Assembly: GCA_030673825.1 (NCBI GenBank)
Contig: JAUTCS010000115.1
Location: forward strand, 1-64,000
Reading direction: 5' to 3'
From: Verrucomicrobiota bacterium JB024
GTDB lineage: Bacteria; Verrucomicrobiota; Verrucomicrobiia; Opitutales; Cerasicoccaceae
Length of the DNA: 64,000 nt
The position numbers and the translations under genes are program-made. Shown here in pieces: positions 444 to 13,705 of this stretch (position 1 is the stretch's first letter; every line of letters begins with the position of its first letter). The notes beneath the pieces were generated by a model. The model was not told where the DNA came from. It ran no database searches and saw only the letters and a program-made list of their open reading frames with translations.

Positions 444-929
444 TTAGGTGCAGACAGTCGCTCCGATGTCCATTTTCGGTTTGGTCCAGCGGTAGCGCCC
501 GGCCACGGTGCCGCCGGTCAGGCCGAGGGCTTCGAGCATCTGGCGGTTGTCTGCGGGCGGCTCGCACGAGAAAGTTTCCTTGAAGGAGGAGGGCATGGTG
601 CTGACGCGGCCCTGAAAGAGGATTTTGCACGCCAGAACGACGTCGGATTCGTCCTCCTCGGAGCTGCCCTGGATGGCGAAGACGCGGTGCAGGCTGACCT
701 CGGTCAGGCTCTCCGGAAGCATGTCCAGCACGACCAGGTGCTTTTCGGGATCGAGTGCCGGGTCGATGAGCGGAATCAAGTCCTTGTTCATCAGGCTCCA
801 GACAAAAGGTGTGTCCTCATCCTTATGCTGGGTGAGGTAGCGGGCCAGCACGCCGTCCGGACCCGTCAGTTTGACCGGTCCGAGCTGCGTGTAGTTCGTG
901 CCTTCGCATTGATAGAGCCAGAAACTCAT
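444..929 (-). CDS. Unrecognised 161-aa protein in the nif cluster
   Basis: I do not recognise this family. The protein is soluble, acidic in its middle part and without signal peptide or membrane segment. It has cysteines near residue 8 (YQCEG), in the second half (LACKIL, FSCEPP) and at the extreme C-terminus (TVCT). Its ATG overlaps the nifV stop codon (ATGA, 929-926), so it is translationally coupled to homocitrate synthase and should be made with the nitrogenase proteins. A flavodoxin follows. The conserved frame and tight coupling support a real gene. A role in cofactor assembly or electron transfer is a guess from position. Confidence 0.8.
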   Translation of the reverse strand: MSFWLYQCEGTNYTQLGPVKLTGPDGVLARYLTQHKDEDTPFVWSLMNKDLIPLIDPALDPEKHLVVLDMLPESLTEVSLHRVFAIQGSSEEDESDVVLACKILFQGRVSTMPSSFKETFSCEPPADNRQMLEALGLTGGTVAGRYRWTKPKMDIGATVCT

Positions 930-2068
930 GACCAGACTTCGTTGTGTTTGAGGAGATAGTTCTCCAGGGTTCTCTGAAATTCTTTCGGCGAGAGGGCGCG
1001 GCCAAGCCGTTCGGACTCACGGCGTACATCAGGCAGGAGCTCCTGCGCCATGCTACGCGTCAGCGGCACGCCCATGTCGGAAGCGGCCTGCACGAGCGCT
1101 GCCGATCCGCTGTGGCGGCCAATGACGAACGCGCTGCGCGTGCGACCGACATCCTCGGCGCCGATGGTCTCATAACTGGCGCGGTCCTCTGCCAAGCCCC
1201 GGCAGTGGATGCCGGACTCGTGCTGGAAGCAGCCCTGTCCGGTGACGGGTTTATCCCAGGCCAGCCGGCGTCCCGAGGCCGCCGCGACGAGGTCACTCAG
1301 CTCGGCGAAGCCGGAAAAGTGCATCCCCAAGTCGATCCCGGCGGAGTGGCGCAGGGCTGCCGCTGTGATCTCCAAAGCGGCATTACCGGCTCGTTCGCCC
1401 AGCCCGTTGACAGTGACGCTGGCGCAGTCAGCCCCGGCGAGCAGGGCGGAGACGGTGTTACCGACTGCCATGCCGAGGTCGTTGTGCCCGTGGAATTCGA
1501 TCTCGATCGAAGTCGCCGGGCGGACGGCGTGGACGAGGTCCATCGTCGTCTGCGGGTTGAGGCAACCAACTGTATCCGCCAGACGAATACGCTTCGCTCC
1601 GACGGCTTCGGCGGCCTGCGCGAAATCTACAAGGAAGGCCGGGTCCGCGCGGGAAGCGTCCTGCGCCCCGACACTGAAGTAGGAAAACGTTCGCTTTGCT
1701 TCAGCTGCTAGCTCGACCAATGTGCTTAGCGCCCAGTCGGCATCTTTTTTCCAGATGCGCATATGCAGCTCGCTGGCGGGGAGGGAAAAGTGGAAGCCGT
1801 CGGCGCCGGTCAGGGCGGCGGCGGCAAGGTCCTCGTGCGAGGCGCGGCCCCAGGTGGTGATGCGGCAGGGGAGCCGCTGACCGACGATGGCCTGGATGTG
1901 GGCGATCTCGGTTTCCCCCATGGCGGGAATGCCGACCTCGAGCTCCGGCACACCGGCGTCGGCCAGCTGGCGCGAGATCGCCAGCTTCTCGTTCAGAGTA
2001 AAAACCACGCCCGCTGCCTGTTCTCCATCGCGCAGAGTCGTGTCAATCAGGTAGCGGGCGTGTTTCAC
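926..2068 (-). CDS. nifV: Homocitrate synthase NifV
   Basis: A 380-aa protein condensing acetyl-CoA and 2-oxoglutarate to homocitrate, the organic ligand of the iron-molybdenum cofactor. The N-terminus carries the DTTLRDGEQ signature of the DRE-TIM metallolyase family, with the metal-binding EFHGHND motif near residue 195 and NGLGERAGNA near 220. The length matches NifV (about 380) better than bacterial isopropylmalate synthases (over 500). Context settles the choice: it sits downstream of nifB, a ferredoxin and a molybdate-binding Mop gene, and is coupled by a 4-base overlap to the next unknown gene. A homocitrate synthase for lysine synthesis is the alternative, unlikely here. Confidence 0.93.
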   Translation of the reverse strand: MKHARYLIDTTLRDGEQAAGVVFTLNEKLAISRQLADAGVPELEVGIPAMGETEIAHIQAIVGQRLPCRITTWGRASHEDLAAAALTGADGFHFSLPASELHMRIWKKDADWALSTLVELAAEAKRTFSYFSVGAQDASRADPAFLVDFAQAAEAVGAKRIRLADTVGCLNPQTTMDLVHAVRPATSIEIEFHGHNDLGMAVGNTVSALLAGADCASVTVNGLGERAGNAALEITAAALRHSAGIDLGMHFSGFAELSDLVAAASGRRLAWDKPVTGQGCFQHESGIHCRGLAEDRASYETIGAEDVGRTRSAFVIGRHSGSAALVQAASDMGVPLTRSMAQELLPDVRRESERLGRALSPKEFQRTLENYLLKHNEVWS

Positions 2069-2311: not shown

Positions 2312-2623
2312 CTAGTCCTCGCTGATGAGGTTGGTCTTGCAGACCTCCCCGTCTTCGATGGAGTCAAGAATCTCGTCAATCAGCTCTTCCGTGGCCTTCT
2401 CGTAAAAATGGCCGGCGGGATAGTCGATGATGACCGGACCGCGGGTGCACATGTTGAGGCAGCCGGTCATGGAAATTTCCACGCCGCTAAGCATACGGTC
2501 CTGCACTTCACCCTGAGCGTAGGAGAGCAGGTTGATGGATTCCTTGTTGCAGCAGACGCCCTTGAGCTCGCCGGTGGCGCGCGCACTGCCGCAGATGAAC
2601 AGGTGATGTTCGGGCTTATTCAT
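2312..2623 (-). CDS. [2Fe-2S] ferredoxin, thioredoxin-fold type
   Basis: A 103-aa protein of the thioredoxin-like [2Fe-2S] ferredoxin family. The cluster ligands are visible as cysteines in [16 protein letters not shown], in the following KGVCCNKE and in [12 protein letters not shown]. Proteins of this family are found in nif regions of several diazotrophs, where they are proposed to donate electrons or to protect nitrogenase during oxygen stress. It lies between nifB and mop on the same strand, with 67 bases to nifB. Which of the two roles applies cannot be read from the sequence. Confidence 0.88.
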
Positions 2624-2690: not shown

Positions 2691-4001
2691 TCAACCGCAG
2701 CCGGTGCCGTCACCGCCGCAGCTCGTCCCGGCGCCACAGCCCTTGAAACTGCGCACGAGGCTGGGGGGAAGCGTCTCGCCGTGGAAGACCGAGGACAGAC
2801 CGGCGTCGATCATGCCCTCCATCTCGATGACCTGGACCCCGCTGGCCTTGAGCGCCTGCTTGGGCGTCGTGCCCGCGGCGTTGACGAGGATCGCGCGGCA
2901 GTCCTTGAGCATTTTGGCCAGCTCAAGCCAGCGCTGGTCGCCGGAACCGTGGGCGGGAGCGGCGCGTTTTTCGACGGCGATAAACTCCTCCTCGTCCTCC
3001 GGATCGATGCCAAAGATGGTGAACTCGCGGGCCTCTCCCAAGTGCTGGTTGACCAGCATCCCCTCGCGGGTGGCCACGGCCACGTACTCGCGGGTCTCCT
3101 GCGGGTTGATCGGCAGGCGCGAGCAACTGCGGATGAGCTCCTGGATCTCCTCGGTGTTCTGCTGGCCGAGGCGGCCGACGGCGTCCGCGCGGCAGCGGGC
3201 GCAGTGGGTCATCTGGTTCATGTGCTCGCCGCACTTGAGGCGGACGGCGAAGCGCATCTTAGCGTCGGGTTCGGGCAGGTTTTCAAAGACCGTCTCGGCG
3301 GTGGGCAGGAGCGGGATGCAGTTCATCACGTCCGCACCCATGGCGGAGACCGTCCGGGCGATCTCGGGCAGGTGCTCGTCATTGATGCCCGGGACGATAA
3401 TCGAGTTGACCTTGGCGATCATGCCGTACTGCTTGATCCACTTGACGGCCTGGAGCTGGCGCTCGATCATGATCTCCCCGGCCTGACGGTGGCGGTAGAT
3501 GCGCTTGTCGTGGCGGGCCCAGGCGTAAACTTTTCCGGCGATCTCGGGATCGACGCCGTTCATCGTGATGGTGACGTGCGAGACCTTCAGTTCGGCCAGT
3601 TCCTTCACATACTCCTCCGTCAGACCGAGACCGTTGGTGGAGAGGCAGAGGATCATCTTCGGGTACTTCTCGCGTACGAGGCGGAAGGTCTCCATCGTCT
3701 CTTTCGGGTTGGCGAATGGGTCGCCCGGCCCGGCGATGCCCACGACGGCGATGTCGTCGCGCATCTCCATGACCTTGTCCAGATAGGTGAGGGCCTGTCC
3801 GGGTGAGAGCACGGCGGAGGTGACGCCCGGCCGGCTCTCGTTCACGCAGTCAAAGTCGCGGTTGCAGTAGTTGCACTGGATGTTGCACTTCGGGGCGATG
3901 GGGAGATGGATCCGTCCGTAGGTGGCGCAGGCGCCTTTACTGAAGCACGGATGGTTGTCGAGATTGATCTCGGAAGGGTCGATGTTCATCGCTGTCGTCA
4001 T
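2691..4001 (-). CDS. nifB: FeMo-cofactor biosynthesis protein NifB with NifX-like C-terminal domain
   Basis: A 436-aa radical SAM enzyme that makes NifB-co, the iron-sulfur-carbide precursor of the nitrogenase cofactor. The N-terminal HPCFSKGAC segment and the SAM cluster motif CNIQCNYC (about residues 39-46) are clear, followed by the GIAGPGDP and LSTNG motifs of the radical SAM barrel. From about residue 310 the protein continues as a NifX/NafY-like cofactor-binding domain (VAVATREGMLVNQHLG). The last 16 residues are glycine/cysteine-rich (GCGAGTSCGGDGTGCG), which is unusual and could bind metal. It is followed 67 bases later by the ferredoxin gene and lies 65 bases after nifN. Confidence 0.97.
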   Translation of the reverse strand: MTTAMNIDPSEINLDNHPCFSKGACATYGRIHLPIAPKCNIQCNYCNRDFDCVNESRPGVTSAVLSPGQALTYLDKVMEMRDDIAVVGIAGPGDPFANPKETMETFRLVREKYPKMILCLSTNGLGLTEEYVKELAELKVSHVTITMNGVDPEIAGKVYAWARHDKRIYRHRQAGEIMIERQLQAVKWIKQYGMIAKVNSIIVPGINDEHLPEIARTVSAMGADVMNCIPLLPTAETVFENLPEPDAKMRFAVRLKCGEHMNQMTHCARCRADAVGRLGQQNTEEIQELIRSCSRLPINPQETREYVAVATREGMLVNQHLGEAREFTIFGIDPEDEEEFIAVEKRAAPAHGSGDQRWLELAKMLKDCRAILVNAAGTTPKQALKASGVQVIEMEGMIDAGLSSVFHGETLPPSLVRSFKGCGAGTSCGGDGTGCG

Positions 4002-4066: not shown

Positions 4067-5472
<1,406 letters not shown>

Positions 5473-5476
<4 letters not shown>

Positions 5477-6897
5477 GCCGCACCTCCTTCGCAGGCGAGG
5501 GGAGCGGTCGGCTCGGGCTCGGGGAGGCGGAGGGCCTTGGCCTGGCGGCGGGGGGCGTATTTCCAGATCGGCGAGCAGGCGCTGTTGGCAACCTCCTCGG
5601 CGAAGTGGACCATGCCCTCGAACCCGGCCAGCGGGATCTTGCGCTCGTGGTTGTGGTCGCAGAAGGCGACCCCGAGCTTGAAAGCGATGGGGCGTTCCTT
5701 GACGCCCCCGATAAAGAGGTCCACGTCCTTTTCCAGAACAAACTTGGCGAGCTCGAGCGGGTTGGAGTCGTCCACGATCACAGTGCCCGGATCGCAGATT
5801 TCCTTAAGCTGCTCGTAGTCTTCGGCGCTGCCGGTCTGCGTGCCGGCGAGGACGGTCTGCATCCCCAGTGAGCGCAGCGCGAGCACGAGGGAAAAGGCTT
5901 TGAAAGCGCCGCCGACGTAGAGCGCGGCTTTCTTGCCCTTGAGGCGCTTCTTGTACTCCTTGAGCTTGGGCGCGTACTTGGAGATTTCGTCGCGGACGAG
6001 CTCCTCGGCGCGGCGCATCAGCTCCGGGTCGCCGAAATGCTCGGCGGCGGCATAGATGGCGCGGGCGGTGTCCTCGAATCCGAAGAAGGATACGCGCTCC
6101 ATCGGGATGCCGTAGTCGTCCTTGAGGAGCTTGGAAAGGTGGGTCATCGACCCGGAGCACTGCACGAGGTTGAGCTTGGCCCCGTGGCAGCGGCGCAGGT
6201 CGTCCACGCGCCCGTCACCGGTGATGGTGGAGACGACCTGGATGCCGATCTTTTCGTAGTACTTGCGGATCATCCAGGCTTCCCCGGCGATGTTGAACTC
6301 GCCCAGCAGGTTGATGCTGTACTTGGAGATGCCGTTCGTGTCGCCGGTGCCGACCAGTTTGTAGGCTGCTTCGCAGGCGGCCTGGTAGCCGCTCTTCTTC
6401 GTGCCCTTGAAGCCGGGCGAATCGACCGGTATGCAGTCGATGCCGGTTTCCTTCGTGACCTGCTTGCAGACCGCGCCGACGTCGTCACCGATGAGACCGA
6501 CAATGCAGGTCGAGTAAACGAAGGCAGCCTTGGGCTGGTAGAAGTTGATCAGTTCGAGGAGCGAGGCTTTCAACTTTTTCTCGCCGCCGAAGATGACTTC
6601 CTTTTCGGCCAGGTCGGTGGAGAAGCTGTTACGGTTCAGCTGCGAGCCCGAGGAGAGTGAACCGCGTATGTCCCAGTTATACACGGCGCAACCGATCGGC
6701 CCGTGGACGATGTGGAGCGCGTCGGCGATCGGATAAAGCACGACGCGCGAGCCACAGAAAGCGCAGGCACGCTGGGTGACGGAACCGGCCGCGCTCTTTT
6801 TATCGCAGACGAATTCCTTGCCCGAACCCTTCGTCCAGACCTGGTCTGAACGCTCGTCAAGCACTCGGATTGAACTGGGTGTATTTACGCTGTTCAT
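5473..6897 (-). CDS. nifE: Nitrogenase cofactor scaffold subunit NifE
   Basis: A 474-aa homologue of the nitrogenase alpha subunit, partner of NifN. Visible motifs are RACAFCGSRVVL, HIVHGPIGCAVYNWD and the STCIVGLIGDDVGAV segment that corresponds to the P-cluster region of NifD. The cofactor-liganding histidine context of NifD (QLHSYDYGGP) is absent at the matching place, as expected for NifE. It ends in a 4-base overlap with nifN. The upstream gap of 118 bases to the ferritin gene holds a GG-N10-GC pair, but too close to the start to be a convincing promoter. Confidence 0.95.
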
Positions 6898-7015
6898 GAG
6901 TACTTACTGGGTTAGCTTTAAGCGTGCCGTTCGGTTCGTTATTTCGTTTTTTTGTGCCTATTTTTAAAAGATTCGGGAGACTTCCAAATTATTCCCTAAA
7001 CTCAATTGTCTAAAC

Positions 7016-7507
7016 TCAGTCGTCTCCCAGCTCTTTTACGATGTGACGGTCAAGAGCGTAAATCGATCCCGCGCACTCGGCACGGGCAACGAGGGTGATC
7101 ATTTTGGCGGCCCAAGCCTCCTCTTCGACCTGCTCGTTGATGAACCACAGCAGCATGGGCTGCGATTCGTAGTCCTTCACATCAAGCGCCAGCGAATAGC
7201 AGGTCTTAATGTTTGAACTATTCTGTTGCTCAAGCTTTTGCGCATAACAGGCGAGCTCGTGCAGCGAGGTAAACTCTCCCCTCGGCGCCGAGATGGCATC
7301 GACCTTCGGCTGGACACCGCGATCCAGCAGATGTTTGAAGAACTTGGCCCCGTGTTCGCGTTCCTCGGCGGCCTGGGCGAAGAAGAATTTGGCAAAACCG
7401 GGGAAGTCGTGAGACTCGCACCAGTAGGCCAGGGCTTCGTAGCTGTGGGCAGCAAGAAGTTCGTGATTAGCCTGATCGTTAAGGGCTGTTCTAATAGTCG
7501 GTTCCAT
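7016..7507 (-). CDS. Bacterial ferritin (non-haem) inside the nif cluster
   Basis: A 163-aa four-helix-bundle ferritin. The ferroxidase-centre residues are readable: Glu in NHELLAAHSYEA, the AEEREHG motif (EE...H), Glu in KLEQQNSS and Glu/Gln in NEQVEEE. Length and motifs match FtnA-type ferritins rather than haem bacterioferritin, and there is no obvious haem-binding methionine. These proteins oxidise Fe(II) and store iron in a 24-mer. It lies between nifK and nifE on the same strand, with gaps of 76 and 118 bases. An iron store made together with an enzyme needing many Fe atoms per holoenzyme, or an oxygen/peroxide sink, is a reasonable inference. Confidence 0.92.
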   Translation of the reverse strand: MEPTIRTALNDQANHELLAAHSYEALAYWCESHDFPGFAKFFFAQAAEEREHGAKFFKHLLDRGVQPKVDAISAPRGEFTSLHELACYAQKLEQQNSSNIKTCYSLALDVKDYESQPMLLWFINEQVEEEAWAAKMITLVARAECAGSIYALDRHIVKELGDD

Positions 7508-7583
7508 CTCGGAGGAGGGTGAGTTGATTGCTTGTTATTAGTGCGGTATTGGCTGTTGGTGTATTCTCTGCAGAAGCCTTTAA

Positions 7584-8957
7584 TTAGAGCACCAGCTCGA
7601 CCTCATGATCGGGGTCTTCGCGGTCGCGCTGATCGAAGAGCGCGTCGGTGATCTTCTCGAGGATGCGCATGCCGCCCGTGTAACCCACGGAGGGGAAGGC
7701 ACGGTGGCCGACACGGTCGAGGATCGGGAACCCGAAGCGCACGTAGGGCAGCTTTTCGGTGCGGGCGACGTACTTGCCGTAGGTGTTGCCCATGATCAGA
7801 TCGACCGGGTTGTTCTTGATCCACTGGTGCATGTAGTGGATGTCGCTGAAGGCGAGGATCTCGGCTTCCGGGTTGGTCTCGGAGCAGATTTCCTTCATCT
7901 TGGCTTCCCACTTTTTGCCGGGAGTACCGGTGATGACGATCATCGGCTTGGCGCCCATCTCCACGAGGAAGCTCACCATGCTGGTGAGGTGGTCCGGGTC
8001 ACCGAAGATCGCGATCTTCAGGTTGTGGAGGTACTGCGACATATCGCTGATCATGTCCACCAGACGGCCGCGTTCCTTTTCGAGGTCGGCGGGCACGGCG
8101 GTGTCACCAGCGAGGCGGAGGGCGTTGACGAATTCGTCGGTAGCCTTCACGCCGATGGGCAGCTCGAGCACCTTGTTCGGTACCTTGCACTTCTTCTCGA
8201 GTTCGGTAGCCGCGGCCGTGCTGGCGAGCGGTCCGAGCGCGAGGGTCAGGAAGCTGTCCCCCATGGCCTTGAGCTGGGCGACGGTGGTGCCGCCGTCCGG
8301 GTACATGTGGTACTTGCCGTCGTGCGGGGAGTCCAGCACGTCCGAGGTGTCGGGAGCCATGATGTACTCGACGCCGACCATCTCCGCCAGGCGCTTCATT
8401 TCGCGCATGTCGGCCGGTTCGACCCAGCCGGGGAAGATGTTCAGGACGTTCTTGGTCTCGCCACTGGACTCGGCCAGGTACTTGACGAAGGCCGCGCACT
8501 GGTTGGAGAAGCCGGTGACGTGGCTACCGGCGAAGCTCGGCGTGTTGGTGTGGATGACCACTTTGCCTTCGGGGATGATGCCATCCTCGGCGGACTTTTT
8601 GATGATCATCGGAATGTCGTCACCGATAACTTCGGACAGACAGGTGGTGTGAACAGCGACAATATCGGGTTCGTAGATATTGAAGATGTTACTCAGCGCG
8701 GTCTTCAGGTTGGCCATCCCGCCGAAGACGGAGGCGCCTTCGGTGAAGGACGAGGTCGTGGCGACGACCGGGTCCTTATGGTGGCGGGTCAGCTGGCTGC
8801 GGTGGTATGCGCAGCAGCCCTGCGAACCGTGCGAGTGCGGCATGCACTTGTTGATGCCCAGGGCGGCGTACATGGCGCCGATGGGCTGACAGGTCTTGGC
8901 AGGATTGATGCGGAGCGCCTTGCGCTCGCGGATTTCTGCGGTGGTTCCTTCTAACAT
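7584..8957 (-). CDS. nifK: Nitrogenase molybdenum-iron protein beta chain NifK
   Basis: A 457-aa beta subunit of dinitrogenase. P-cluster ligands are recognisable in KTCQPIGAMYA, HGSQGCCAYHR and HTTCLSEVIGDD, with the adjacent SSFTEGASVFGG serine segment. It lacks the roughly 50-residue N-terminal extension of proteobacterial NifK (about 520 aa), matching the short clostridial type. It starts 40 bases downstream of nifD, so the two are co-transcribed. With NifD it forms the heterotetramer that reduces N2 using electrons from NifH. Confidence 0.97.
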   Translation of the reverse strand: MLEGTTAEIRERKALRINPAKTCQPIGAMYAALGINKCMPHSHGSQGCCAYHRSQLTRHHKDPVVATTSSFTEGASVFGGMANLKTALSNIFNIYEPDIVAVHTTCLSEVIGDDIPMIIKKSAEDGIIPEGKVVIHTNTPSFAGSHVTGFSNQCAAFVKYLAESSGETKNVLNIFPGWVEPADMREMKRLAEMVGVEYIMAPDTSDVLDSPHDGKYHMYPDGGTTVAQLKAMGDSFLTLALGPLASTAAATELEKKCKVPNKVLELPIGVKATDEFVNALRLAGDTAVPADLEKERGRLVDMISDMSQYLHNLKIAIFGDPDHLTSMVSFLVEMGAKPMIVITGTPGKKWEAKMKEICSETNPEAEILAFSDIHYMHQWIKNNPVDLIMGNTYGKYVARTEKLPYVRFGFPILDRVGHRAFPSVGYTGGMRILEKITDALFDQRDREDPDHEVELVL

Positions 8958-8997: not shown

Positions 8998-10653
8998 TCA
9001 GGCGCTGGCCGGAGTGGCTTCCTTCTCGGCGGGCTCGGAACCGTCCGTGTGCCAGGGCGCGCGGGCGAGTTTCCAGACCTTGGTCGAGGTCATCCGGTCG
9101 ATGTCCTTGAAGAAGTTGACCGCTCCCTTGAAGCCGGCGTACGGGCCGCCGTAGTCGTAGGAGTGCAGCTGCTTGCAGGGCACGCCCATCTTTTCGATGA
9201 CGTACTTGTCCTTGATGCCCGAGCCGATGACGTCCGGGTGGTACATCTCGATAAGCTTCTCCATCTCGTGGTGGGAGATGTCGTCGATGACGAGCGTGTC
9301 CTTGGCCATCTGGCGCATCATGCCCTCGTAGTCGCTGAAGGTGAAACCGCTCTCCTCGAGGGCTTTCTTCTTCTCGGGCTTGGCGGCGTCGAAGCGCGTT
9401 TCGTCAGCAGTGACTTCGAGCTCTTCGATGTTGCGGGAGTCGGCGTCGATCTTAATGTGCGGGAGCACATCGCGGCCTTCGTAGTCGTCGCGGTGGGCGA
9501 ACTCGTAACCGGCGGCGATCACCTGCATGTCCATATCCTCGAAGAGGTCCTGGTAGTGGTGAGCGCGGCTGCCACCCACGAAGAGGGCGGCGGTCTTGCC
9601 GAAGGTACGGGTGCGGATGTCGTCCAGGACCGGCTTGACCTCGGCCATCTCGGCGGCGATGACTTCCTCGACGCGGTCGATTAGCTCCTTGTCCCCGAAG
9701 TACTGGGCGATCTTGCGCAGGGACTTCTTCGTGCCTTCGATGCCGATGAAGTTGACCTTGAACCACGGGATGCCGAACTTTTCCTCCATCATCTCGGCCA
9801 TGTAGTTGATCGAGCGGTGGCACATGACGACGTTGAGGTCGGCCATGTGGCAGTTGCAGATCTCACCGTAGCTGACGCCTCCGGAGAGGGTGCCGATGAT
9901 GTGGATGCCGCAGAGCTGGAGGACGCGGTCGATTTCCCAGGCATCCCCGCCGATGTTGTACTCACCGAGGATGTTGATCTTGTACTTGGCTTCGACGGGC
10001 GTGTCGTCCAGGCCGATCATGTGCTTGAAGACCCCGTTGTTGGCGATGTGGTGACCGGCCGACTGGCTGACCCCCTTATAGCCTTCGCAGGAGAACCCGA
10101 AGATGTTGATCCCGAGCTTTTCCTTCATGGTGCGGCAGACGGTGTGGATGTCGTCCCCAATGAGACCCACCGGGCAGGTGGCATACACGCTGATCGCCTT
10201 GGGGTGGAACTCGTCGTAGGCTTCCTGAATGGCGGTCGCGAGCTGCTTTTCCCCGCCGAAGACGATGTGGTCTTCCTGCATGTCGGTGGACATGCTGTAC
10301 TGCAGGTAGTTGGTTTCGCCCTCGGCACGGATCTTCGTGATGTTGCGGCGGGACAGCCAGCTGTACCAGCCACAGCCGATGGGGCCGTGGGTGATGTGCA
10401 GGATGTCGTAGATCGGGCCGATGACGACCCCCTTACAACCGGCATAGGAACACCCGCGCTGGGTGATGATGCCGGGAACGGTACGGCTGTTGGCCCCGAT
10501 TTCCGCCGGAGTGGCGGGATCTTCATTGACCAGCATCTGCTTACCGCGTTTGCGCTGAGTCTTCTTCGGATAGATCTTCAGCATTTCCTCGCGGGCGGTG
10601 GCAGCATCCGGCCCGTGGGGCCCCATGGGGGCTTTGTTAATTGCGTCAGACAT
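8998..10653 (-). CDS. nifD: Nitrogenase molybdenum-iron protein alpha chain NifD, clostridial type
   Basis: A 551-aa alpha subunit of dinitrogenase. P-cluster cysteines lie in RGCSYAGCKGVV, HGPIGCGWYSW and YATCPVGLIGDD. The cofactor ligands are the Cys of VMCHRSINYM and the His of KQLHSYDYGGPYAG. The protein is some 60 residues longer than Azotobacter NifD because of an insertion that begins near EGRDVLPHIKIDADSRN. The Clostridium pasteurianum enzyme carries the same type of insertion at this place. The absence of an anfG/vnfG gene and these residues indicate a molybdenum enzyme. The 102-base gap after nifH contains small GC-rich hairpins that may set the NifH:NifDK ratio. Confidence 0.97.
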   Translation of the reverse strand: MSDAINKAPMGPHGPDAATAREEMLKIYPKKTQRKRGKQMLVNEDPATPAEIGANSRTVPGIITQRGCSYAGCKGVVIGPIYDILHITHGPIGCGWYSWLSRRNITKIRAEGETNYLQYSMSTDMQEDHIVFGGEKQLATAIQEAYDEFHPKAISVYATCPVGLIGDDIHTVCRTMKEKLGINIFGFSCEGYKGVSQSAGHHIANNGVFKHMIGLDDTPVEAKYKINILGEYNIGGDAWEIDRVLQLCGIHIIGTLSGGVSYGEICNCHMADLNVVMCHRSINYMAEMMEEKFGIPWFKVNFIGIEGTKKSLRKIAQYFGDKELIDRVEEVIAAEMAEVKPVLDDIRTRTFGKTAALFVGGSRAHHYQDLFEDMDMQVIAAGYEFAHRDDYEGRDVLPHIKIDADSRNIEELEVTADETRFDAAKPEKKKALEESGFTFSDYEGMMRQMAKDTLVIDDISHHEMEKLIEMYHPDVIGSGIKDKYVIEKMGVPCKQLHSYDYGGPYAGFKGAVNFFKDIDRMTSTKVWKLARAPWHTDGSEPAEKEATPASA

Positions 10654-10755
10654 GAGTAATGAACCTGTCGTTATAAGTTTGTTTAAGGTGGCGCGTACGC
10701 GCTCGATCCCTCATGGAGGAGCCGGCCGCACCTCGGTGGTGTCAAAGGCCTGTTC

Positions 10756-11646
<891 letters not shown>

Positions 11647-11690: not shown

Positions 11691-11708
11691 GTGCAGTCGT
11701 CATGCCAA
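11691..11708 (-). promoter_or_regulatory. Candidate sigma-54 promoter of nifH
   Basis: On the minus strand the sequence TTGGCATGACGACTGCAC has GG and GC exactly 10 bases apart and differs from the -24/-12 consensus (TGGCACG-N4-TTGCA) at two positions. Transcription would start near 11682, leaving a leader of about 50 bases before the nifH ATG. A standard NifA site (TGT-N10-ACA) was not found by eye in the 400 bases upstream. Confidence 0.75.
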
Positions 11709-12067: not shown

Positions 12068-13705
12068 ATGACTGAACTGGATACCTGTAAGAATGTCGGT
12101 TGCATGCTGGCGCGGGAGGGACCCTCGCTGGACGTGCTGAACCGTACCATGGGCGTCAGTTGCCGGTCCGTGCAGGAGCTGAGCCTGATGTTTGCCATCA
12201 GCCAGACCCTGGAAAAGAGCTTTGACCTGACCGATATCGTCAAGCCGGTCCTGCGCCGCCTGCAGGACATGATCGGGCTGGAGCGCGGGACGATCGCGAT
12301 CCTGAATCGCGACACGGGTGCCTTTATCCTGTCGGAGGCTGTCGGGCTGCCCCGCGGGCTGCGTTCCAGTGATTACCTGGACCTGATCCGGCCGCAGTTG
12401 CAGGAGACCGTCAAGCGCGGCAACCCTGTCATCGTGGCGAATTTCGCGGCCTGGCTGAAAGAACAGGACACGGACCCCGAACTGGTGAAATCGCTGAATG
12501 TCGCGCCGCAGGCGGGGCTGGTGAGTGTGCCGCTGAAATTTGAAAACGAGGCCATCGGCACGCTCAGCATTGAGCGCCCACACGATCCGGATGTGGGCTG
12601 GGAGGCGGATCTGCGCATCCTCGGCATGATCGCCTCGATCATCGCACAGGCCGCACGCGTGCGCCAGGAGGCCGCCGAGCGCATCCAGAGCCTGCGGGCC
12701 GAGAACGACCGGCTCCAGCTGGAGATCGCCCACAGCTTCCGCCCGAAGAACATGGTCGGCAACTCCAGCCTGATGCAGTCGGTGTACTACCACATCGAGC
12801 AGGTGGCCACGAGCGTGACCACGGTGCTGATCCGGGGTGAGAGCGGCACGGGGAAGGAACTGGTGGCCAAGGCGCTGCATGACAAGAGCCCGCGTAAGAG
12901 CCAGCCCTTTGTGAAGTTCAACTGCGCGGCGCTGCCGGACTCGATCATTGAGAGCGAGCTCTTCGGGCATGAAAAGGGCGCCTTTACCGGGGCGCTGGCC
13001 ATGCGCAAAGGGCGCTTCGAGCTGGCGCACAACGGGACGATCTTCCTCGACGAAATCGGAGACATCTCCATCGCCACGCAGATCAAGCTCCTGCGCGTGC
13101 TCCAGGAGCGCGAGTTCGAGCGCGTCGGCAGCCAGAAAACGCAGAAGGTGGACGTGCGCATCATTGCCGCCACCAGCCGCGACCTTGAGGCGATGATGGA
13201 GGAGGGGACTTTCCGCGAGGACTTGTACTACCGGCTCAATGTCTTTCCGATCTACATGCCGCCGCTGCGCGAGCGCACCTGCGACATCCTCATGCTGGCC
13301 GACTATTTTATCGAAAAGTACACGGCGCGCGCCGGGGGAAAGCCTGTTCGCATCTCATCCGCAGCGATCGACCTGCTCATGAGCTACTACTGGCCGGGTA
13401 ACGTGCGCGAGCTGGAGAACTGCATTGAGCGAGCCGTGCTGCTGGCCAAGGGGCAGTCGATCAAGGCGCATCACCTGCCGCCCACGCTTCAGAAAAAGAA
13501 CGCCGCTGAGCGTAAGGAGTCCGAATCCTCCACGCTGGAGGACGCCGTACAGGCGCTGGAGCGCGAGTTGATCATCGACACGCTCAAGGACACCGGTAGT
13601 AACATGGCCGAGGCCGCCCGCAGGCTGGGCCTGACCGAGCGCAAGATGGGGCTGCGGGTCAAAAAATACGGAATCGACCTCAAGCGATTCGCCAAGCCGC
13701 ACTGA
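12068..13705 (+). CDS. nifA: NifA-type sigma-54-dependent activator
   Basis: A 545-aa activator with an N-terminal GAF domain (about residues 30-175), a sigma-54 AAA+ domain (about 235-465) and a C-terminal Fis-type helix-turn-helix (about 500-540). The AAA+ domain has the Walker A GESGTGKE, the sigma-54 contact loop GAFTGA and the Walker B segment IFLDEIGD. The interdomain linker (KKNAAERKESESS) has no cysteines, unlike oxygen-sensing rhizobial NifA. A Cys-x4-Cys pair sits instead at residues 7 and 12, reminiscent of the N-terminal cysteines of AnfA/VnfA. The start has an AGAGG site 5 bases upstream. Divergence from nifH argues for nif control; no nifL is present. Confidence 0.9.
   Translation: MTELDTCKNVGCMLAREGPSLDVLNRTMGVSCRSVQELSLMFAISQTLEKSFDLTDIVKPVLRRLQDMIGLERGTIAILNRDTGAFILSEAVGLPRGLRSSDYLDLIRPQLQETVKRGNPVIVANFAAWLKEQDTDPELVKSLNVAPQAGLVSVPLKFENEAIGTLSIERPHDPDVGWEADLRILGMIASIIAQAARVRQEAAERIQSLRAENDRLQLEIAHSFRPKNMVGNSSLMQSVYYHIEQVATSVTTVLIRGESGTGKELVAKALHDKSPRKSQPFVKFNCAALPDSIIESELFGHEKGAFTGALAMRKGRFELAHNGTIFLDEIGDISIATQIKLLRVLQEREFERVGSQKTQKVDVRIIAATSRDLEAMMEEGTFREDLYYRLNVFPIYMPPLRERTCDILMLADYFIEKYTARAGGKPVRISSAAIDLLMSYYWPGNVRELENCIERAVLLAKGQSIKAHHLPPTLQKKNAAERKESESSTLEDAVQALERELIIDTLKDTGSNMAEAARRLGLTERKMGLRVKKYGIDLKRFAKPH

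Follow-up and report, generated by a model that had tools for sequence, protein, structure and literature searches.

The window, by which we mean the whole 64,000-nucleotide stretch of DNA from Verrucomicrobiota bacterium JB024 that was analyzed, carries a run of nitrogen fixation genes in the order nifH-D-K-ftn-E-N-B-fd-TOBE-V, with a nifA-like gene divergent upstream of nifH. The ftn gene (7016..7507, minus strand) starts with ATG and encodes a 163-amino acid ferritin of the classical, FtnA type with a PF00210 domain. Its 5' neighbor is nifK (7584..8957, minus strand; TIGR01286, 436.7 bits, cut-off 427.3) and its 3' neighbor is nifE (5473..6897, minus strand; TIGR01283, 610.8 bits, cut-off 505.1), so that all three genes are read from the same strand. 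The nifK-ftn intergenic region (7508..7583, minus strand) measures 76 bp and folds weakly (z 0.4), and the ftn-nifE intergenic region (6898..7015, minus strand) measures 118 bp. The first-pass annotation had placed a ferritin gene between nifK and nifE on their strand, and both its coordinates and its identity were correct: the open reading frame is there, the product matches PF00210, and NifK and NifE pass their family cut-offs.

On the 5' side of nifK lie nifD (8998..10653, minus strand; TIGR01282, 657.6 bits, cut-off 653.55), nifH (10756..11631, minus strand; TIGR01287, 450.8 bits, cut-off 394.35), and the gene for the nifA-like sigma-54 activator (12068..13705, plus strand; TIGR01817, 503.5 bits, below the cut-off of 528.85). 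The interval between nifH and nifD (10654-10755) holds no nifI (PII) genes; a Desulfovibrio plasmid cluster has two there. On the 3' side of nifE, nifN (4067..5476, minus strand) was named by position, with 300.1 bits to TIGR01285 (cut-off 326.8) and 317.9 bits to TIGR01286, and is followed by nifB with a C-terminal NifX-like domain (2691..4001, minus strand; TIGR01290, 388.8 bits; PF02579). The next gene, fd (2312..2623, minus strand), is kept between nifB and nifV in relatives, and in some other clusters it is directly preceded by ftn. Its product had no Pfam or family match; we take it to be a small [2Fe-2S] thioredoxin-like ferredoxin. The nifV-like homocitrate synthase gene lies at 926..2068 (minus strand; TIGR02660, 428 bits, below the cut-off of 462.9). 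The ftn gene lies within the nif run on the same strand and is kept there in relatives, as would be expected by position of a member of the nif regulon.

The ftn product scored 107.3 bits against the Pfam Ferritin family PF00210 (cut-off 24.5), and a phmmer search of solved structures returned the ferritins of Thermotoga, Pyrococcus, Mycobacterium, and E. coli with E values of about 1e-20 to 1e-22. An AlphaFold model built from an 18-row alignment (A1) had a mean pLDDT of 96 and contained five helices (residues 3-32, 36-62, 82-109, 116-142, and 146-161), helix E included; it superposed on the E. coli, Vibrio, and Thermotoga ferritins with TM values of 0.92-0.95. The ferroxidase ligands of E. 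coli FtnA are E17, E50, H53, E94, Q127, and E130, with E49, E126, and E129 forming the third site, and all of these positions are conserved in 12/12 of the ferritins encoded between nifK and nifE. The product therefore has the domain, the five-helix fold with helix E, and the ferroxidase residues of a classical Ftn. A Dps mini-ferritin was ruled out by the five helices including helix E, the Dps of the same genome being a different gene. No bacterioferritin family appeared among the Pfam and NCBIfam matches of the product, and its 79.9 bits against the NCBIfam non-haem ferritin equivalog NF007638 fall short of the 178 required, so that by this model the product, although a ferritin, does not qualify as an FtnA equivalog. 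Taken together, the matches and the predicted fold suggest that the ftn product is a classical 24-mer-type ferritin. E. coli FtnA and Thermotoga maritima ferritin have the same fold, length, and ferroxidase ligands at sites A, B, and the third site; the ftn product is about 31 percent identical to them and differs from them in lying in a nif cluster. The most striking residue specific to the ferritins of the nifK-nifE position is Cys103 (12/12). The idea that the cysteines form a novel metal site was rejected for the W-C pair, which the ftn product has in common with E. coli FtnA.

We then asked how widely the arrangement is shared. Among 273 genomes of the order, in which nifE was called at E<=1e-120 and the ferritin at E<=1e-40 to that of the window, nifE occurred in 18, this ferritin type in 18, and both in 15 (Fisher p 3.6e-19, a statistic that ignores relatedness). 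The gene sits between nifK and nifE in 11/18 nifE-bearing genomes (G000, G020, G054, G033, G062, G070, G071, G072, G104, G117, and G129), the window's own included, and between nifB and fd in 3/18 (G040, G090, and G126). Strain DG1235 provides a twelfth nifK-ftn-nifE case. The two slots can be used within one genus: G070 has ftn in the nifK-nifE slot, and its congener G040 has a nifK-nifE gap of 43 bp and ftn after nifB. In G118, ftn was found on another contig than nif, near the contig end, so linkage is not judgeable there. No ftn was detected in the nifE-bearing genomes G171, G046 (86 percent complete), and G076 (77 percent complete), and the ferritin type was present with no detected nifE in G105, G130, and G146. 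Chance juxtaposition was rejected because the arrangement recurs in this way; a dead gene was rejected by the same recurrence and by a dN/dS of 0.07-0.10 among three congeners (dS 0.7-1.0, so partly saturated), which indicates purifying selection. The earlier proposal was thus borne out in part: the ferritin embedded in the nif run is real, has a complete ferroxidase center, and tracks nitrogenase in its presence, and iron buffering for cofactor assembly and detoxification of oxygen products are putative roles. The first-pass annotation had proposed to check related clusters for the insertion, and it does recur in Opitutales-type relatives.

In the window's own genome, which is 95 percent complete, one other PF00210 gene was found and was read as Dps; as far as the assembly shows, ftn encodes the only classical ferritin of the cell. 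The same holds in the window's genus, where ftn is the sole classical ferritin in 3/3 nif-bearing genomes, and the one genome lacking nif (1/1) has no classical ferritin and retains only a Dps-sized PF00210 gene. In G104, G129, and G071, a second, ordinary ferritin is encoded elsewhere in the genome. A Dps-like PF00210 gene was also seen between nifK and ftn in Coraliomargarita sp. SDUM461004 (L037:8434-8874), and such a neighbor of ftn occurs in 1/12 nifK-nifE clusters only.

In a sample of 337 genomes of the phylum, nifE was present in 27, of which 19 fall outside the order. Neither tblastn nor an HMM built from 100 ferritins, which did pick up the positive control E. coli FtnA, found a ferritin in the 17 nif regions fetched from outside the order, three of them (L140, L149, and L150) partial pieces. 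The remaining two out-of-order genomes, G342 and G475, have nifE coordinates identical to those of G288 and G276, where the ftn gene is found on the side of a nifA-like gene, some 9-14 kb upstream of nifH. Since many nif clusters of the phylum have no ferritin, the ferritin is not required for nitrogenase. A genome-wide scan with the single peptide pattern EQVEEExW, covering the best 80 of 93 relatives and blind to ferritins that lack the motif, added more nifB-ftn-fd loci from Verrucomicrobiota, among them that of Geminisphaera colitermitum TAV2, and 12 such loci in total entered the ferritin tree. The first-pass annotation had also proposed to check clostridial-type clusters, and no ferritin lies near nifE in 29/29 Bacillota loci (about 1.5 kb flanks). 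Two of 235 nifE-bearing plasmid records were examined. The Desulfovibrio plasmid nif cluster has no ferritin; the nif plasmid of Methylococcus sp. EFPC2 has a bacterioferritin gene beside rnf genes, which likewise places an iron store of the 24-mer class near nif. That protein, however, belongs to the Bfr rather than the Ftn family and is encoded about 9 kb from nifH, outside nifHDKEN, and its link with nif is an independent association.

The ferritin tree (100 rows) united the 12 nifK-nifE rows in one clade (97/84) but not the 12 nifB-fd rows (5 changes). Forty-three relatives, mostly from Verrucomicrobiota, formed a separate clade (100/98); they belong to the same subfamily as the window's ferritin, at about 40-55 percent identity, but no nif run lies in their fetched flanks, and these flanks showed no convincing shared neighbors either. 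Genomes with nif genes account for 29/34 of the nif-side ferritin rows vs 7/43 of the others, and the fetched nif regions of those seven contain no ferritin. The NifE tree (51 rows) likewise united the 12 nifK-nifE clusters, which come from six families of the order and from strain DG1235, in one clade (100/95), and in it the nifB-fd clusters were mixed with ferritin-less clusters (8 changes, at least 6 forced). Because the nifK-nifE rows form one clade in both trees, the cluster and its ferritin appear to have travelled together, and the arrangement is most simply explained by a single origin and subsequent spread with its cluster. The nifB-fd arrangement was probably gained or lost several times.

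We next examined the intergenic regions for signs of transcriptional control. A possible -24/-12 promoter lies at 11692..11707 (minus strand), some 60-76 bp ahead of nifH, and differs from the consensus at 2 positions; this match, at 11707, is the best on the minus strand, and two plus-strand sites are equally good, so that it is weak and not significant alone. A search ahead of nifH for the canonical NifA upstream site (TGT-N10-ACA) gave no match, and no sigma-70 promoter was found in the nifK-nifE stretch of the window. The first-pass annotation had named a separate iron-responsive promoter as what would speak against its reading, and none stands out: Fur-like, IdeR-like, and sigma-70 scores in the window's nifK-ftn gap were no better than those of shuffled sequences. 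Comparison of 12 nifK-ftn gaps showed a strong hairpin after nifK in 7, but not in the window or its two congeners. The hairpins argue for stepped or separate transcription in some relatives, and it is unsafe to suppose simple read-through in every one of them. The GC3 of ftn is below that of both neighbors in 10/12 clusters (0.67 vs 0.84-0.86 in the window), a possible sign of weaker expression or of a separate history of the gene. Given both features, the ferritin may be made below the level of NifHDK, or from a start of its own in some relatives. In three clusters, an antisense gene of the PF05635 type (23S rRNA-intervening-sequence-type) lies between ftn and nifE (L033:9580-9948, L036:9537-9896, and L037:9611-10021, the last assigned by sequence likeness only).

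What does this ferritin do? Its recurrence in nif clusters across several families and its tracking of nitrogenase suggest that it tends nitrogenase's iron, and its co-presence with nif, its absence from the nif-less congener, its two slots, and the Dps neighbor fit a role in nitrogenase iron handling. We consider it fairly likely that a nif-recruited ferritin serves as an iron buffer for cofactor assembly and at the same time clears Fe(II) and oxidants. A classical ferritin would have been recruited into the nif cluster of an Opitutales-type lineage and then inherited and exchanged together with that cluster. It would be made when nitrogenase is made; surplus Fe(II) would be oxidized with O2 or peroxide and stored in the cage, and the stored iron would be returned for [Fe-S] and FeMo-cofactor assembly by NifB, NifE, and NifN, so that free Fe(II) and oxidants may be kept from nitrogenase. 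Against this reading count a protein with no visible specialization, the lower GC3 of ftn and the hairpins after nifK, the many clusters of the phylum that do without ftn, the negative search for a NifA upstream site before nifH, and the three genomes with the ferritin type but no detected nifE. A ferritin dedicated to nitrogenase, that is, a nif-controlled cage that would hand iron directly to NifB, NifE, and NifN and be reduced by the nif [2Fe-2S] ferredoxin, seems unlikely to us. The ferredoxin is proposed as reductant because of the nifB-ftn-fd adjacency, and a model for ferredoxin-driven iron release exists in Bfd, which serves bacterioferritin.

The ferroxidase reaction might instead be the main job, with O2, H2O2, and Fenton-active Fe(II) removed and storage incidental. 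The complete ferroxidase center is in keeping with this, as is the one cluster in which ftn adjoins a Dps-like gene (Dps proteins are known to protect against peroxide), but that neighbor is confined to a single cluster, and sequence does not separate this reading from iron buffering. Moreover, ferritin turnover uses up iron, which makes ferritin a poor steady O2 sink, and we find protection as the main job doubtful. We judge it rather improbable that a housekeeping ferritin landed in a permissive nif slot, moved with the cluster, and serves the whole cell. The nifK-nifE slot is indeed variable, being filled elsewhere by an acetyltransferase or, in one cluster, by a TOBE protein; a sole classical ferritin may serve the whole cell, and three genomes have the ferritin type with no detected nifE. 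Against such a passenger speak the use of two different nif slots, a ferritin that is present or absent with nif in the window's genus, and the three genomes that keep a second, ordinary ferritin elsewhere. A view that ftn-nifEN forms a separate iron-responsive transcription unit outside nif control could draw on the strong nifK-ftn hairpins and the lower GC3 of ftn, but the window and its two congeners lack the hairpin and no sigma-70, Fur-like, or IdeR-like site rises above shuffles in the window's gap, and we hold this to be very unlikely.

In the open-access papers searched, we found no account of a ferritin gene within a nif cluster of Verrucomicrobiota, and the portions covered of PMC10669500, PMC11059613, PMC12691677, PMC7341956, PMC9769520, and PMC6920513 report none. 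Verrucomicrobial nif clusters appear in a supplementary figure of PMC7341956, which also describes, for several lineages, genes connected with oxygen and ROS, katG among them, close to nifHDK. In Azotobacter vinelandii, BfrA and Dps are raised during N2 fixation according to the portion covered of a review of Azotobacter iron (PMC10669500), which adds that experimental evidence for their role is not available. They resemble the ferritin proposed here as iron stores up-regulated with nitrogenase, but that portion of the review does not place them in a nif operon.

Nitrogenase has a large iron demand, and how this iron is supplied and stored in cells is poorly known. With a sole classical ferritin embedded in a nif cluster, the question of whether iron storage belongs to nitrogenase assembly or protection can be put to a clean genetic test, and ftn is a possible extra part for transferring nitrogenase to other hosts.

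Three further genes were noticed. A 161-amino acid protein is encoded after nifV (444-929, minus strand); it was found in 14 loci, in 12 of which it lies no more than 90 bp from nifV, in a survey with 44 loci having a nifV match, has no match in Pfam, NCBIfam, or PHROG, and is a candidate new nif-associated protein. In one Phycisphaerales cluster, a gene for a TOBE-domain protein of the molybdate-binding type occupies the nifK-nifE slot (L129:10331-10534). In several verrucomicrobial clusters that have no ferritin gene in that slot, it holds a GNAT acetyltransferase gene (L113:8933-9502 and L127:9361-9951; also in the slot in L128, L131, L078, L083, L085, L089, and L096), possibly encoding an unrecognized nif-associated acetyltransferase.
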